A stretch of 13,674 nucleotides of DNA from positions 1 to 13,674 of the forward strand of contig JBFLYA010000102.1 in the NCBI GenBank assembly GCA_040757115.1. The letters run 5' to 3'. The notes under the pieces were generated by a model. It ran no database searches, was not told where the DNA came from, and saw nothing but the letters and a program-made list of their open reading frames with translations. This stretch comes from a bacterium. GTDB lineage: Bacteria > UBA9089 > CG2-30-40-21 > SBAY01. The position numbers and the translations under genes were made by a program. Shown piece after piece: positions 4,157 through 13,674 of the stretch (the first letter of the stretch is position 1; each line of letters starts with the position of its first letter).

Positions 4157-4747
4157 ATGAATTTAGCCAATAAATTAACCTTATTAAGAATTATTCTGGT
4201 GCCTTTTTTTGTCATATTTTTAGCCTATGACAATGTGTACTCTTATTATCTAAGTCTATTGGTATTTCTTATCTGTGCTATAACAGATATTTATGACGGT
4301 AAGATTGCTCGAAAGTATGGATTAGAAACTACCTTTGGAAAGTTTGCCGACCCATTAGCCGATAAAATATTAGTTTCTGCGGCGTTTATTTATTTTGTAG
4401 AGATGCCAGCGTTACACATACCCGCATGGATGGTAATCTTGATTATTACACGAGAATTTGTGGTTACAGGACTGAGAATGATTGCGATGTCAAAAGGTGT
4501 AGTCATTGCCGCTTCGTTAAAAGGTAAATTAAAAACCACCTTTCAGATTACGACAATTATCATTATTTTACTTATCCTGGTTATAAAGACATATCTGCGG
4601 GATTTTCTTGGAATAGAAAATACCCTTTTCCCTTTTTCAGTGGTTTTAGAATATACACCTTTAATTTTAATGTCAATAACTACCTTTTTTACAGTGATAA
4701 CCGGTATCTGGTTTACTATTTTACATAAAAAACTCGTAACTATTTAG
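4157..4747 (+). CDS. pgsA: CDP-diacylglycerol--glycerol-3-phosphate 3-phosphatidyltransferase
   Basis: PgsA transfers the phosphatidyl group from CDP-diacylglycerol to glycerol-3-phosphate, the first committed step to phosphatidylglycerol and cardiolipin, in the cytoplasmic membrane. The 196-residue product carries the full CDP-alcohol phosphatidyltransferase signature D-x2-D-G-x2-A-R-x8-G-x3-D-x3-D, with Asp44, Asp47, Gly48, Ala51-Arg52, Gly61, Asp65 and Asp69. There are about five or six hydrophobic segments. The N-terminus (MNLANKLTLLRIILVPFF) is typical of PgsA, which supports ATG 4157 although no ribosome binding site precedes it. The last codons and the TAG stop (GTA ACT ATT TAG, 4736-4747) fall in the GTAACTATTTA repeat motif seen at other palindromic unit ends, so the C-terminus may have been reshaped. 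It converges with the gene ending at 4768. Confidence 0.95.
   Translation: MNLANKLTLLRIILVPFFVIFLAYDNVYSYYLSLLVFLICAITDIYDGKIARKYGLETTFGKFADPLADKILVSAAFIYFVEMPALHIPAWMVILIITREFVVTGLRMIAMSKGVVIAASLKGKLKTTFQITTIIIILLILVIKTYLRDFLGIENTLFPFSVVLEYTPLILMSITTFFTVITGIWFTILHKKLVTI
4736..4746 (+). repeat. Solo GTAACTATTTA end-motif at the pgsA stop
   Basis: Identical in all 11 bases to the unit end at 6533-6543. Over 16 bases (GTAACTATTTAGCCAT) it resembles the unit end at 6764-6779 (GTAACTATTCAGCCAC). It contains the first two bases of the pgsA TAG. No inverted partner is visible nearby, so it may be a remnant or chance. Confidence 0.45.
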
Positions 4748-4767
4748 CCATCTATAGTGAGACAACA

Positions 4768-6207
4768 TTATTTATTCCATATCGGATGTAAAACACTAAT
4801 GTTGTTATCACTGATATTTCCAGTAATAACATCATTTAACCCATCGTTATTTACATCAGCAATGGCTAATCCTCCAGGTGCTTTACCGGTAGGAAAATAT
4901 AAGGGAGGAAGGAGATGTCCTTTATTATCCTGAAGATAAATAGTGAAGGTTTCTCCGTGTGTGGTTACTAAGTCAGCTCGGCCGTCATTATTAATATCAC
5001 CTATTTTTACCCCGCCAGCCCGACCGTCTTTACTTGTCGCCGTGCCAATTAGTCCAAATGAAGTCTCATCCTTTCGTCCAAAAATGGAGACAGGGCCTCC
5101 AGAGGCGGCAATTTCATTTATTCCATCACCCGTTAGGTCTCCGATAGCAACCGTAGATGGATTTCCACCCGCAGTTTGAAGTGCCCCCATTGGCAGAAGA
5201 GACTTATCTGGTTGTTGGAAATATGCATTCACGGTGTTGTTTCCATAATTAACCGTCGCAATATCTTCTCTTCCATCCCCATTTATATCTCCGATGGCTA
5301 ACCAGTATGAAATTGGACCTGAGGCATAAACAATATGGCTAAATATTTCATTTCCCTGTCGTTGCATTGTTAGACTCTCACATTTTTTAAAAGAACCAAG
5401 TAGATAATCATAACTTTCCTTAACCTCTGGTAACCAGGTAAAAATACTAATAGAAGTTGCCCCTGAATTAGGGACAACAATATCATTTCTTCCATCGCCA
5501 TTAACATCACCTACGGCTAATCCATAAGGGCCTCGTTCAGTGCGGAATACCATTGCTTGAGTGAGTGTGCCACCTTTATTTTGAGTAAAGATATGAATAA
5601 CATCAGCCGCCGCACAACCAACCACCACATCATTTAACCCATCAGCATTCATATCCCCTATGCCTACCCCAAAAGGACCTTGATTAACGGGATAGGTGGT
5701 TTGTGTGGCTAATTTTCCATCGGCTAGTTGAATAAAAACACTGATGTTGTTATCATAATAGTTAGCCGATACAACATCATTTAATCCATCGCCATTAACA
5801 TCTCCAGCCGCAATAATTCCCGGGGAGCCACCGGTTTGATATGAGGTAGGTAAGGTCATTGAAATCTCGCCACCTTTTGGGGCTCTGGCATCGTAAGAAA
5901 ATTCTACCACCTGATATGGTGAAACATTTCCTTCACGGTCACTCGCCGCCAAATAAAGCCTGTGTCCCCCACTTCCACTTACCCTTAAATTCTTAATGTA
6001 GGGATTGATTGTCCAGTTAGTATTAGGTTGCTGGTCGAGTTTATAGAAATAAGCCACTATTTCCTCACCGGCTGGTGGTTTCCAGGTGATATTAAATGAA
6101 TGTTTCCCTGCCTCTTGAGTAACCTTTATATCTATGGGTGGATTGATTGTTTTAGCCCAAACTACACTCTGGATAAAAAAGATAAATAAAAAGATTAATA
6201 TTTGCAT
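4768..6207 (-). CDS. Secreted FG-GAP/VCBS seven-repeat beta-propeller protein
   Basis: The 479-residue product starts with a Sec-type signal peptide (hydrophobic residues 3-17, likely cleavage after VVWA at 18, with no basic residue in the n-region). Residues about 22-108 look like a fibronectin type III-like domain (ITWKPPAGEEIVAYFYKLD; HRLYLAASDREGNVS). Seven FG-GAP/VCBS calcium-loop repeats of the DxNxDGxxD type follow at about 136, 185, 234, 307, 357, 404 and 451 (for example GDVNGDGLNDVV). Spacing is 47-50 residues except for a ~24-residue insertion between the third and fourth. Seven repeats fit a closed propeller like the integrin alpha headpiece fold. The fifth loop (GDLTGDGINE) is less canonical. 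No anchor or sorting motif is visible. The role is probably extracellular binding, but the ligand cannot be inferred. AAAGGAGG at 6217-6224 sits 9 bases before the start. Confidence 0.9.
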   Translation of the reverse strand: MQILIFLFIFFIQSVVWAKTINPPIDIKVTQEAGKHSFNITWKPPAGEEIVAYFYKLDQQPNTNWTINPYIKNLRVSGSGGHRLYLAASDREGNVSPYQVVEFSYDARAPKGGEISMTLPTSYQTGGSPGIIAAGDVNGDGLNDVVSANYYDNNISVFIQLADGKLATQTTYPVNQGPFGVGIGDMNADGLNDVVVGCAAADVIHIFTQNKGGTLTQAMVFRTERGPYGLAVGDVNGDGRNDIVVPNSGATSISIFTWLPEVKESYDYLLGSFKKCESLTMQRQGNEIFSHIVYASGPISYWLAIGDINGDGREDIATVNYGNNTVNAYFQQPDKSLLPMGALQTAGGNPSTVAIGDLTGDGINEIAASGGPVSIFGRKDETSFGLIGTATSKDGRAGGVKIGDINNDGRADLVTTHGETFTIYLQDNKGHLLPPLYFPTGKAPGGLAIADVNNDGLNDVITGNISDNNISVLHPIWNK

Positions 6208-6244: not shown

Positions 6245-6303
6245 GTTCATCTAACCGATTACTTACTTTTAATTTCGTAAAGCCCTATTTTATAAAAGAA
6301 TTG

Positions 6304-6525
6304 GTAACTATTCACCATTCACAATTCACCATTCACAATTTCTTCCCTAAATTTCCTTAATAATGGTGAATGGTGAATTGTCAATTGTGAATTATCACTC
6401 TTCACGGTGTCAAGCAAACCTGGCCCAAGAGTTCGATGCACCGCTATAGCGCATCCAATGACTCTATTCGATAATTCATCAAATTTCACTTCGTGCTCTC
6501 CGTACCCTTCGTGGTGAATAGTTAC
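6304..6525. repeat. Palindromic unit 1, ends GTAACTATTCACC
   Basis: Exact 13-base terminal inverted repeats (6304-6316 and 6513-6525) bound 222 bases. Inside the left part is a second inverted repeat of word-like sequence: ACAATTCACCATTCAC (6321-6336) pairs exactly with 6366-6381 within a longer imperfect match. The right part holds the GxxExxY gene remnant. There is no transposase. Non-autonomous and MITE-like in form. Confidence 0.75.
6403..6516 (-). pseudogene. GxxExxY-family protein, N-terminal remnant
   Basis: Minus-strand translation reads HHEGYGEHEVKFDELSN, then RVIGCAIAVHRTLGPGLLDTV. The second part matches the conserved N-terminal helix of GxxExxY proteins (TIGR04256, PD-(D/E)XK-like PF13366), whose usual form is IIGAAIEVHRELGPGLLES followed by VYEECL. 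Similarity stops at codon 6403-6405, where the GTGAATTGTGAATGG word repeat begins. The frame then runs through the repeat to a TGA at 6319-6321. The missing remainder (normally about 90 more residues, including the GxxExxY motif and catalytic residues) makes this a broken gene. A possible start is GTG 6487-6489, with GGAG 8 bases upstream. The His-Glu-Gly-rich leader is encoded by CACGAAGG-type repeat DNA. Confidence 0.75.
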
Positions 6526-6541
6526 AAGAATTGTAACTATT
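6517..6541. repeat. Perfect 11-bp hairpin where two palindromic units meet
   Basis: AATAGTTACAA, loop GAA, TTGTAACTATT: 11 perfect base pairs formed by the right end of unit 1 and the left end of unit 2 lying back to back. Confidence 0.7.
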
Positions 6542-6634
6542 TATCCCGGTGAAGTAAGACAGTAGGTTCACGGAGCAAGGAAGCTTATTTTCTACCTTGC
6601 TCTTTTGTTTCACTTCGGATGGTTAAATAGGTAG
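6533..6634. repeat. Palindromic unit 2, structured leader-like element
   Basis: Starts with GTAACTATTTA and ends with the imperfect counterpart TTAAATAGGTAG. The arms CTATTTA (6537-6543) and TAAATAG (6624-6630) pair over 7 bp. An inner GAAGT/ACTTC arm pair and a perfect 8-bp hairpin (GAGCAAGG 6573-6580 with CCTTGCTC 6595-6602) lie inside. Read on the minus strand it is just downstream of the promoter at 6640-6669, so it would be the start of a structured 5' leader. I match it to no known riboswitch. Confidence 0.55.
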
Positions 6635-6639
6635 AAAGA

Positions 6640-6669
6640 ATTTTATCATATTCTGGAGTAGTATGTCAA
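6640..6669 (-). promoter_or_regulatory. Sigma-70 promoter reading toward the GxxExxY remnant
   Basis: Minus-strand TTGACA (6664-6669), 18-base spacer, TAAAAT (6640-6645), the same architecture as the flippase promoter. It would initiate near 6633, run through the structured unit and the broken GxxExxY gene, and could continue into the FG-GAP gene starting at 6207. Confidence 0.6.
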
Positions 6670-6708
6670 CAAAAATTTGAATTTATCCGTAGATTATGCG
6701 AATTTACG

Positions 6709-6920
6709 GTAACTGTTCACCGCAGAGACACAGAGACGCAGAGAAAAAAATTAAAATCTATTGGTAACTATTCAGCCACAGATGGACACAGATGAAACAC
6801 TGATTTTATTTTTTTATCCGTGCTAATCCGTGTTAATCAGTGGCTGAATAGTTACTTTATTTCTATGTCTTCTCTGCGAACTCTTGCGTCTCTGCGGTAA
6901 AGGACTACCTGAACGGTTAC
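6709..6920. repeat. Palindromic unit 3, CACCGCAGAGAC word family
   Basis: The outer ends GTAACTGTTCA (6709-6719) and TGAACGGTTAC (6910-6920) are inverted copies (10 of 11 bases). ACCGCAGAGAC (6719-6729) pairs exactly with GTCTCTGCGGT (6888-6898). Flanking GACGCAGAGA words extend the similarity imperfectly. Unit 4 is nested inside. The right end overlaps the bioF stop codon (TAA at 6917-6919). Confidence 0.7.
6764..6855. repeat. Palindromic unit 4, nested in unit 3, CCACAGATGGACAC word family
   Basis: Exact 16-base terminal inverted repeats GTAACTATTCAGCCAC (6764-6779) and its complement (6840-6855) bound 92 bases. The similarity continues past one mismatch with GAT. The interior carries GGACACAGATG and ATCCGTGCTAATCCGTG words. 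The 15-mer ATTGGTAACTATTCA at its left edge also occurs at the left edge of unit 1. Confidence 0.8.
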
Positions 6921-8086
6921 AATTTACGCAGAAATGCCCATAGCACCTTATCGAGCTGAGATTTTGTATGGGTTGCCATCACACTCAGTCTTATACGGGA
7001 TTTTCCTTTTGGCACGGTTGGTGGTCTTATCCCTGGGGCAAAAATGCCATATTCATAAAGAAAATTTGCTACATCCATCGTTTTATTGCTATCTCCTATA
7101 AATACAGGGATAATTGGGGATTCACTCTCCATTGTATCAAGCCTTAAGTTTTGTAATCCTTGTTTTAAATATTGGATATTCTCCCATAATTTCTGTCTGT
7201 GATGAGGTTCTGTTTGAATTATTTCTAATGCCGCCAGGGCTGAAGCCACTTGAGCTGGTGGAAGTGCTGTTGAATAGATAAAACTTCGTGCCTTGTTTTT
7301 CAGGTATTCAATTAAAGCCGTAGAACCGGCAATAAATCCACCAAGACTTCCCAATGCCTTACTTAAGGTTCCCATTGAAATATCAATTTTTCCTTCTAAC
7401 CCAAAATATTCAATTGTCCCTCGACCTTCTTTTCCCATTACCCCGGTGCCATGGGCATCATCGACCATAACTAATGCCTTGTATTTTTTGGCTAAACCGA
7501 CTATTTCTGGCAAAGGAGCAATATCCCCATCCATACTGAATACGCCGTCAGTAATAATCAGTCGAAGTCTTGCAGATTGAGTTTTTTTTAAAATCTTTTC
7601 AAGGGAATTCATATCTTTGTGGGGATAGATTCTCAAAATTGCCTCGCTTAATCGACAACCATCAATGATACTGGCATGATTTAATTTATCAATGATGACG
7701 ACATCACCTTTTTTAGTCAGGCTTGATATTACTCCAAGATTAGCCGCATAACCAGAAGAAAAGACAAGTGCAGACCTGGTTTTTTTAAAATCAGCCAATT
7801 GTCTTTCTAATTCACAATGCAGGAAAGTAGTTCCCGAAACTAACCTTGAGGCACCACTGCTACAACCAAATCTTTCAATAGCCTCTTTAGCCTTCTCTTT
7901 AACTTTTGGGTGCTGACTTAAACCAAGATAATCATTTGAGGCTAAAAGGATGTATTCTTTTTTGCCAATGACAATGGTAGGTCCGTTAAGGGAATCAAGG
8001 ACTTTTAACTCCCTATAAAGTCCTTGTTTCTTGAGATTATTTAGTTCCTCTTTTAAACTGACTAAATCCATAAGTGGCGGATTCAT
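6917..8086 (-). CDS. bioF: 8-amino-7-oxononanoate synthase (KAPA synthase)
   Basis: BioF condenses pimeloyl-ACP (or -CoA) with alanine to 8-amino-7-oxononanoate, the first step of biotin ring assembly, using PLP in the cytosol. The 389-residue length is typical. Alpha-oxoamine synthase landmarks: ASNDYLGLS near 49, CSSGASRLVSG near 75, His137 (KLNHASIIDG), Asp209 and His212 (VDDAHGTGV), and the PLP lysine Lys243 (GTLSKALGSLGG). The C-terminal GIRPPTVPKGKSRIRLS favours BioF over glycine C-acetyltransferase. Start ATG 8084-8086 has only a weak AAGAAAG site, and ATG 8069-8071 is an alternative. No other bio genes are present. The start overlaps the methyltransferase remnant by 50 bases, and the stop lies in a palindromic unit end. 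If the organism lacks other bio genes, a related alpha-oxoamine synthase role is possible. Confidence 0.92.
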   Translation of the reverse strand: MNPPLMDLVSLKEELNNLKKQGLYRELKVLDSLNGPTIVIGKKEYILLASNDYLGLSQHPKVKEKAKEAIERFGCSSGASRLVSGTTFLHCELERQLADFKKTRSALVFSSGYAANLGVISSLTKKGDVVIIDKLNHASIIDGCRLSEAILRIYPHKDMNSLEKILKKTQSARLRLIITDGVFSMDGDIAPLPEIVGLAKKYKALVMVDDAHGTGVMGKEGRGTIEYFGLEGKIDISMGTLSKALGSLGGFIAGSTALIEYLKNKARSFIYSTALPPAQVASALAALEIIQTEPHHRQKLWENIQYLKQGLQNLRLDTMESESPIIPVFIGDSNKTMDVANFLYEYGIFAPGIRPPTVPKGKSRIRLSVMATHTKSQLDKVLWAFLRKL

Positions 8087-13494: not shown

Positions 13495-13625
13495 CACAAC
13501 CCTCCTCGTAATATTACATAGTCTGAATTAGAGTTCTGCAAAACTAAGAAACTGTAGTTTTTAAGCGGGTATTTAACACCTCTATTTTTATCAATTTCCT
13601 ACAAAGAGCAAAATGCAAAACTCGT

Positions 13626-13674
13626 TTATAGTTTAGGGTTTATAGTGTATAGTTTATAGTGTATAGTGTATAGT
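13626..13674 (+). repeat. Tandem heptamer array at the right edge
   Basis: Seven consecutive 7-base units run to the last base: TTATAGT, TTAGGGT, TTATAGT, GTATAGT, TTATAGT, GTATAGT, GTATAGT. The units are phase-perfect with substitutions only. The array is cut by the window edge, so its true length is unknown. It lies about 120 bases upstream of the nifV-like gene. Confidence 0.85.

Follow-up and report, generated by a model that had tools for sequence, protein, structure and literature searches.

Palindromic units with common GTAAC ends and dissimilar interiors: probable non-autonomous elements of the IS66 type

Introduction

Four palindromic units are crowded between positions 6304 and 6920 of the DNA analysed here (the window, i.e., the whole stretch of 13,674 nucleotides; contig JBFLYA010000102.1 of assembly GCA_040757115.1). 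They begin and end with forms of the same short motif, starting with GTAAC, and their interiors look dissimilar; two of the units stand back to back and a third encloses the fourth. What such units are, how they moved and why their contents differ are the questions raised by this locus. A first-pass annotation, made from the letters of the window alone, had preferred a non-autonomous mobile family moved in trans and had named a recombination system capturing hairpins as another possibility. Comparisons were made with the genome of origin (G000, an assembly of 4.32 Mb), a sister genome of 98–99% identity (G001) and further bacterial genomes.

The preference for mobilisation in trans was borne out by an enrichment of paired motifs, by occupied and empty sites and by target-site duplications (TSDs). 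With a probability of about 0.83, the units belong to a large non-autonomous family with ends of about 11 bp and TSDs of 8 bp, which is mobilised by the TnpC transposase of IS66 elements and whose interiors are decayed GxxExxY and IVS modules; in the window, unit 2 would have preceded unit 1, and unit 3, with unit 4, would have arrived separately.

Results and Discussion

Units and target sites in the window

The relevant features are as follows (coordinates of the window):

4736–4747, plus strand: solitary end-like motif GTAACTATTTAG, encoding VTI*, which closes the CDP-alcohol phosphatidyltransferase gene at 4157–4747 (..LVTI*)
4767–4774 (approximate place), plus strand: empty target (ATTATTTA), occupied in G001
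6295–6302, plus strand: original left copy of the TSD of unit 2 (AAAGAATT); unit 1 now lies between this copy and unit 2
6296–6303, plus strand: left copy of the TSD of unit 1 (AAGAATTG)
6304–6525, no strand assigned: unit 1, a non-autonomous element of 222 bp with ends GTAACTATTCA and a perfect 8-bp TSD
6526–6533, plus strand: right copy of the TSD of unit 1 (AAGAATTG), overlapping unit 2 by its last base
6533–6634, no strand assigned: unit 2, an older element of 102 bp with left end GTAACTATTTA and a degenerate right end, TAAATAGGTAG
6635–6642, plus strand: right copy of the TSD of unit 2 (AAAGAATT)
6701–6708, plus strand: left copy of the TSD of unit 3 (AATTTACG); one copy only at the empty site in G001
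6709–6920, no strand assigned: unit 3, an element of 212 bp with ends GTAACTGTTCA and GTAACCGTTCA and arms of GxxExxY-type words (CGCAGAGA); unit 4 lies inside
6764–6855, no strand assigned: unit 4, a palindrome of 92 bp with ends GTAACTATTCA and CACAGATG words
6917–8086, minus strand: gene for a PLP-dependent aminotransferase (KBL/BioF-like), whose stop codon TAA is contributed by unit 3 with its right-hand GTAAC end
6921–6928, plus strand: right copy of the TSD of unit 3 (AATTTACG)

The coordinates given for the four units in the first-pass annotation were all correct. The shared inverted ends that it described are exact in units 1, 3 and 4 (unit 3 is closed by the exact inverted pair GTAACTGTTCA with GTAACCGTTCA), but not in unit 2, since the reverse complement of its right end, CTACCTATTTA, differs from GTAACTATTTA by two mismatches. 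The ends of unit 2 resemble those of an insertion of 147 bp in G001 (locus L214, about 5194–5340), which has an 8-bp TSD of its own and is absent from G000. Unit 1 is present in many near-identical copies, both in G000 and in G001.

Flanking repeats are perfect at 8 bp for unit 1, for unit 3 and, after discounting unit 1, also for unit 2. Prior to the arrival of unit 1 the sequence would have consisted of unit 2 between two copies of AAAGAATT, which argues that unit 2 was inserted first and unit 1 later at its left edge, with duplication of AAGAATTG. Unit 3, already holding unit 4, represents a separate insertion, with duplication of AATTTACG, in the final codons of the aminotransferase gene. 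The corresponding site in G001 is empty (..ATGCGAATTTACGCAGAAATGC.. with a single copy of AATTTACG); the aminotransferase ends there with ..CAFLRKFA*, and in the presence of unit 3 with ..WAFLRKL*. No 8-bp TSD was present in the flanks of unit 4, which were checked for one, and the composite of units 3 and 4 recurs at about 94–95% identity (L040, L056, L065; further copies exist). Unit 4 thus gives no sign of a separate insertion and was multiplied together with unit 3, the two forming a single composite. At the G001 locus corresponding to the empty target near 4767 (L184), an element of 237 bp with ends GTAAGCGTTCA and GTAACCGTTCA is present between both copies of the target.

RNA folding yielded −94.8 kcal/mol (z −12.6) for unit 3 and −69.8 kcal/mol (z −8.7) for unit 1, and strong folding of the palindromes could perhaps soften the effects of insertions within transcripts. 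A search of the whole window against Rfam gave no match.

Abundance and pairing of the end motif

The motif GTAACYRTTYA occurred 567 + 574 = 1141 times on the two strands of the G000 assembly, versus 34 + 39 = 73 matches of the reversed pattern. In a sample of G000 consisting of 81 stretches (1.56 Mb), 219 + 201 motifs were found, which formed 81 inward pairs at distances of 80–300 bp; eight Markov-1 resamplings of 1.56 Mb contained 1–7 motifs per strand and not one inward pair. Chance can be excluded by these genome counts and inward pairs, which also confirmed the enrichment of paired motifs over shuffled sequence that the first-pass annotation had proposed as a check. The motif was likewise abundant in G001 (545/529 versus 9/5 for the control) and in the related genome G008 (376/341 versus 3/2). 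Many related genomes from this phylum are enriched in it, and in most other bacteria it is near background. Common to the family of the units is only this end of about 11 bp, GTAACYRTTCA, with the variant GTAAGCGTTCA.

Target-site duplications and empty sites

Exact flanking repeats around 135 inward pairs of up to 500 bp had a length of 8 bp in 38 cases, of 7 bp in three and of 9 bp in none. When the variant end was included, exact 8-bp TSDs were found for 58 elements in the G000 sample and for 35 in a sample of 0.76 Mb from G001. A search with joined flanks detected candidate empty sites in the other genome for 15 of the 58 and 10 of the 35 elements, i.e., 25 candidate pairs of occupied and empty sites, as anticipated for a mobile family by the earlier reading; some of these matches lie within repeats, and about ten are near-unique with 94–100% identity across the junction. 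The interiors represented among them include CGCAGAG, CACGAAG/ATTCACC, GTAGGAAAG, CACAGAGG, CACAGATG and GGTGTAAC; therefore, a single 8-bp mechanism seems to have moved every main interior family.

The elements are 100–900 bp long, and autonomous elements of 1–3.5 kb with an exact TSD were not present in the sample. Mostly within open frames of at least 150 codons lie only four of the 58 dated G000 elements; such frames make up 78% of that sample.

IS66 elements with the same ends

Ends of IS66-family elements usually start with GTAA, and such ends together with an 8-bp duplication point to IS66. Duplications of 8 bp are described as the general product of IS66 elements in a paper on ISPsy5 (PMC3916326). 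The first-pass annotation knew of no named family with the ends of the units; they do match those of IS66-family elements, both in the genome of origin and in related genomes. Five matches to PF03050 were obtained in the G000 assembly, all decayed or partial (one decayed copy plus fragments, some of them at contig ends), and no intact IS66 TnpC was seen among them. The decayed copy at L145, of 1563 bp, is located between GTAACCGTTCAGGTATAG and CTACCTGAACGGTTAC, and a remnant at L149 starts with GTAACTATTCAGC; the same-ended copies in G000 are decayed or cut by contig ends. Intact TnpC proteins between GTAAC-type ends are encoded in two relatives, with 468 amino acids in G004 (L157) and 522 amino acids in G005 (L156, end GTAACTACTCA), and both transposases passed the NCBIfam cut-off for IS66. 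In G014 (L158) both ends are present and the frame is broken. GTAAC ends therefore bound IS66 copies in G000, G004, G005 and G014, and the homology of IS66 copies from different genomes starts at the GTAAC end or a few bases away from it (L157/L163, L148/L173, L149/L158). In this manner a transposase with matching ends, for which a search had been recommended, was found as remnants in G000 and in intact form in G004 and G005.

Trans mobilisation of the units by IS66-family transposases (TnpC, DDE type) with the same ends would explain these data. Enrichment, pairing, TSDs, empty sites and the bounding of IS66 by the ends are observations; TnpC as the mover is what we infer from them, because the complete IS66 copies examined are without exact duplication (none of 8 bp at L145, L156, L157 or L158, which have both ends) and an intact TnpC was not encountered in the G000 assembly. 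Two relatives rich in the motif, G008 and G015, had no PF03050 match.

Interiors of the elements

The interiors had been described as unrelated word families. This is right only in part: words of the GxxExxY type are present in both unit 3 and unit 4, and unit 1 combines IVS and GxxExxY parts. Three portions were recognised in unit 1: a heptad hairpin of the IVS type (ATTCACC/ATTCACA), a 5' fragment of a GxxExxY gene (E 5e-8 by tblastn) and a GxxExxY word arm (CACGAAGG). Elements of this type contain the start of the GxxExxY gene (MKFDELSNRVIGCAIAVHRTLGPGL..), some CGCAGAG elements have another GxxExxY remnant inside, and GTAGGAAAG elements contain the four-helix-bundle IVS gene. The hairpins do not give the impression of arbitrary capture; several of them are GxxExxY or IVS elements that have undergone internal deletion and whose palindromic arms came with the gene.

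Profile searches of the whole G000 genome gave 65 matches to PF13366 and 26 to PF05635. GxxExxY or IVS matches within GTAAC-ended elements with an exact TSD were found at L110, L113, L114, L126, L128 and L129; among these, the element at L126 (484 bp) contains an IVS gene and those at L110, L113 and L114 (292 bp) part of a GxxExxY gene. Several longer elements keep most of a gene or all of it. A recognisable gene remnant was detected by tblastn in 22 of the 93 dated elements, about a quarter; for the remaining ones the GxxExxY or IVS origin is therefore suggested by the type of word. This applies to units 3 and 4, which are without a remnant and are assigned to the GxxExxY type by their words.

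Judging from the remnants, the interiors may differ since different small-gene modules were enclosed between the shared ends and subsequently suffered internal deletion. One module would consist of a GxxExxY gene (PDDEXK_3, nuclease-like) between inverted tandem words of about 8–10 bp, the other of a four-helix-bundle IVS gene (Avd-like) with inverted arms of tandem words, which are about 7 bp long and of almost any sequence.

The word-armed inner layer

In G000, intact GxxExxY and IVS genes are mostly flanked at close range by imperfect inverted arms built of tandem words, and GTAAC ends are usually absent from these loci. The arrangement is also present in distant genomes, where it lacks the IS66 ends. 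In other genomes, the median arm score at 27 GxxExxY and 51 IVS loci was 23; swapped partners of the two kinds had medians of 12 and 11, and 380 control ORFs a median of 11, with 1.6% of them scoring above 23. Arms above the 99th percentile of the swapped controls were present at 13 of the 27 GxxExxY and 22 of the 51 IVS loci. Named plasmids (cyanobacterial, Gemmatimonadota, Sphingomonas and Bernardetia) contain similar words, with only three of 14 loci above this percentile, and in Pseudanabaena the word arrays are direct, not inverted.

A period of 7 stands out sharply in the IVS arms, where self-identity reaches 0.54 at lag 7, 0.51 at lag 14 and 0.25–0.34 at other lags; in the GxxExxY arms it peaks at lags 8–10. 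G000 contains 487 arrays of period 7, versus 10 in shuffles, and for 172 of those in G000 an inverted copy lies no more than 600 bp away. IVS similarity is enclosed by 13 and GxxExxY similarity by two of 88 inverted period-7 pairs, which comprise 51 distinct words; for 45 inverted period-8 pairs the numbers are four and nine, respectively. Near-identical proteins have near-identical arms; arm similarity is still raised at 60–80% protein identity and reaches background below about 50%. Derivation of the words from the target site was rejected, since the words follow the protein lineage and drift.

Avd, of diversity-generating retroelements (DGRs), is a relative of the IVS proteins (PMC10053308), although scores of the latter with the Avd model were weak and below its cut-off. 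This kinship would suggest a route linked to hairpins or to reverse transcription for the inner layer. A role as DGR accessory protein, which would place the gene next to a DGR reverse transcriptase, was discarded: of two reverse-transcriptase matches in G000 the one examined adjoins a Cas1-like gene. At L055 (659–4520) a Cas1-like gene comes directly after the gene for a reverse-transcriptase protein of 954 amino acids, in which TPR-like and primase-like regions are apparent.

A tentative proposal, to which we would give somewhat less than even odds, is that GxxExxY and IVS genes are the core of widespread small mobile elements, whose arms are conserved in form and not in sequence and would drift while remaining matched. 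Such elements could spread between genomes and outside rRNA, and transposases unrelated to them, in this case those of IS66, could package them; what is left of such elements might make up a large part of the bacterial heptameric tandem repeats. A link between IVS genes and tandem words was not found in the literature, which was covered in part, and in the same partial coverage the term "GxxExxY protein" appeared in one paper only, on an algal virus.

One intergenic site contains an IVS element with AGTAGAG words in G000 (L029, 6597–7059) and a different palindrome, with CCACAGAG words, in G001 (L214, 5754–5951). On cyanobacterial plasmids (L306, L307, L314), four-helix-bundle genes are present among CRISPR genes in the same orientation, twice as cas6, IVS, cas4 and once as cas10, IVS, cmr3; on a Sphingomonas plasmid (L318) a GxxExxY gene is located between fabD and fabG, also co-oriented.

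Other explanations

Insertion sequence families other than IS66 also make 8-bp duplications, and one of these DDE families (IS1595, ISL3, IS256 or similar) might be moving the elements, the likeness to IS66 ends being borrowed or accidental. A match of 11 bp is short, and the state of IS66 described above (no intact copy seen in the G000 assembly, no exact TSD at the full copies examined, no PF03050 match in G008 and G015) would be compatible with another mover. This appears unlikely, however, since several separate IS66 lineages in at least four genomes are bounded by the motif, with homology starting at the motif (the search for transposases covered the IS66 type only). Furthermore, a GTAA start is the reported IS66 end, and the other families named here start with GG or CAGGG. 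Far less probable still are REP- or BIME-type palindromes moved by a RAYT (Y1 HUH) transposase: the units are intergenic, palindromic and of high copy number, as REPs would be, but single-strand insertion by HUH enzymes leaves no such target duplication, and the inverted ends of 11 bp and lengths of 100–900 bp do not fit either. REP/RAYT and pure slippage were rejected because of the 8-bp TSDs.

The word palindromes could also be primary, with GxxExxY and IVS modules inserting by a mechanism of their own and GTAAC ends being a favoured target or a later addition. The many modules in G000 with word arms and without GTAAC ends, and the same architecture in many other genomes, make this a possibility to be taken seriously, if still rather doubtful. 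Dated GTAAC-ended insertions duplicate 8 bp exactly at GTAAC, from which it follows that the GTAAC layer moves as the unit. Among modules lacking GTAAC ends, only one comparable site was available between G000 and G001, at which G001 holds a different palindrome, and a clean empty site did not turn up. Primary palindromes are compatible with mobilisation by IS66 if they are regarded as a second, older layer.

Comparison with known systems

Since their ends match IS66-family elements, the best reading of the units is that of non-autonomous elements of the IS66 type that were mobilised in trans. With the IS66 family (TnpC-only, ISBst12-like) and its non-autonomous derivatives they share GTAA-starting ends, the 8-bp duplication (present at the non-autonomous elements and absent at the four full IS66 copies examined) and the occurrence of same-ended IS66 in their own and related genomes; unlike IS66, they have no transposase, and beyond the end there is little or no sequence in common with IS66 or among the units. 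Because they do not encode TnpC, the window units are dependants and not members of IS66; the putative parents at L157 and L156 do encode it. They are best filed as MITEs, or as cassettes where the gene persists. MITEs are likewise short, non-coding and multicopy, with inverted ends and TSDs and without transposase; mobile insertion cassettes resemble the elements at L126 and L110/L113/L114, where a small unrelated gene lies between IS ends with a TSD, although the window units themselves are not cassettes. Different from both are the many interior families per one end, the palindromes of tandem words, and the frequent nesting and composite amplification. The family would thus be an unusual IS66-type variant, as its members have only about 11 bp in common and carry a mixture of decaying word-palindrome gene modules.

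The Ds elements of maize are described as a heterogeneous group with common terminal repeats of 11 bp and greatly varying size and composition (PMC3260210); short ends common to dissimilar elements are the point of likeness. In contrast, Ds are eukaryotic hAT elements, and they have no small-gene word modules.

The intervening sequences (IVS) of 23S rRNA, of about 430–480 bp, carry the S23p/IVS four-helix-bundle gene between inverted repeats and are considered selfish elements of unexplained mobility; that of Coxiella is strongly folded and cut by RNase III (PMC4990558). Their hallmark, a PF05635 gene between inverted repeats, was present at other G000 loci and in other genomes. Unlike them, the elements described here lie between protein genes (at the annotated loci examined), occur in many copies, possess arms of 7-bp tandem words and are often decayed or deleted.

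Heptameric tandem repeats are known from Xanthomonas (GGGAATC; PMC4692102), where 70 cases in X. campestris are convergent inverted pairs, and from Beggiatoaceae (TAACTGA; PMC4679880), and were tied to no mobile element there. Their 7-bp intergenic arrays are similar to those in G000; here, however, IVS genes or what remains of them lie between the members of some heptad pairs.

The results account for puzzling intergenic palindromes with common ends and dissimilar interiors, and provide a datable insertion system, with 8-bp TSDs and numerous sites that are polymorphic between two closely related genomes. The greatest promise lies in the inner layer, which bears on the movement of 23S rRNA intervening sequences and on the origin of heptameric tandem repeats, which are over-represented in bacterial genomes. 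If IVS and GxxExxY genes should generally be the core of word-armed elements, several unexplained classes of repeats would have one explanation.

Other repeats

Six direct repeats of 43 nt at 4827–5814 of the window are coding repeats of an FG-GAP-type protein. The end of the window (13624–13674) is a heptad-like array, TTTATAG/TGTATAG, a type of word as in the arms of the IVS element at L123. Another palindromic family (TAGCACTTATTAATCG.. / ..GACTAATAACTGCTA) is represented in G000 at L029 (3778–3993) and absent at this site in G001 (L214, near 3000); its junction suggests duplication of TA. An insertion of 428 bp at L021 (13619–14048), absent in G001 and with ends like GGTGGTGTCTGAAAATAAC / TTAAGACACCACC, belongs to a further MITE-like family.
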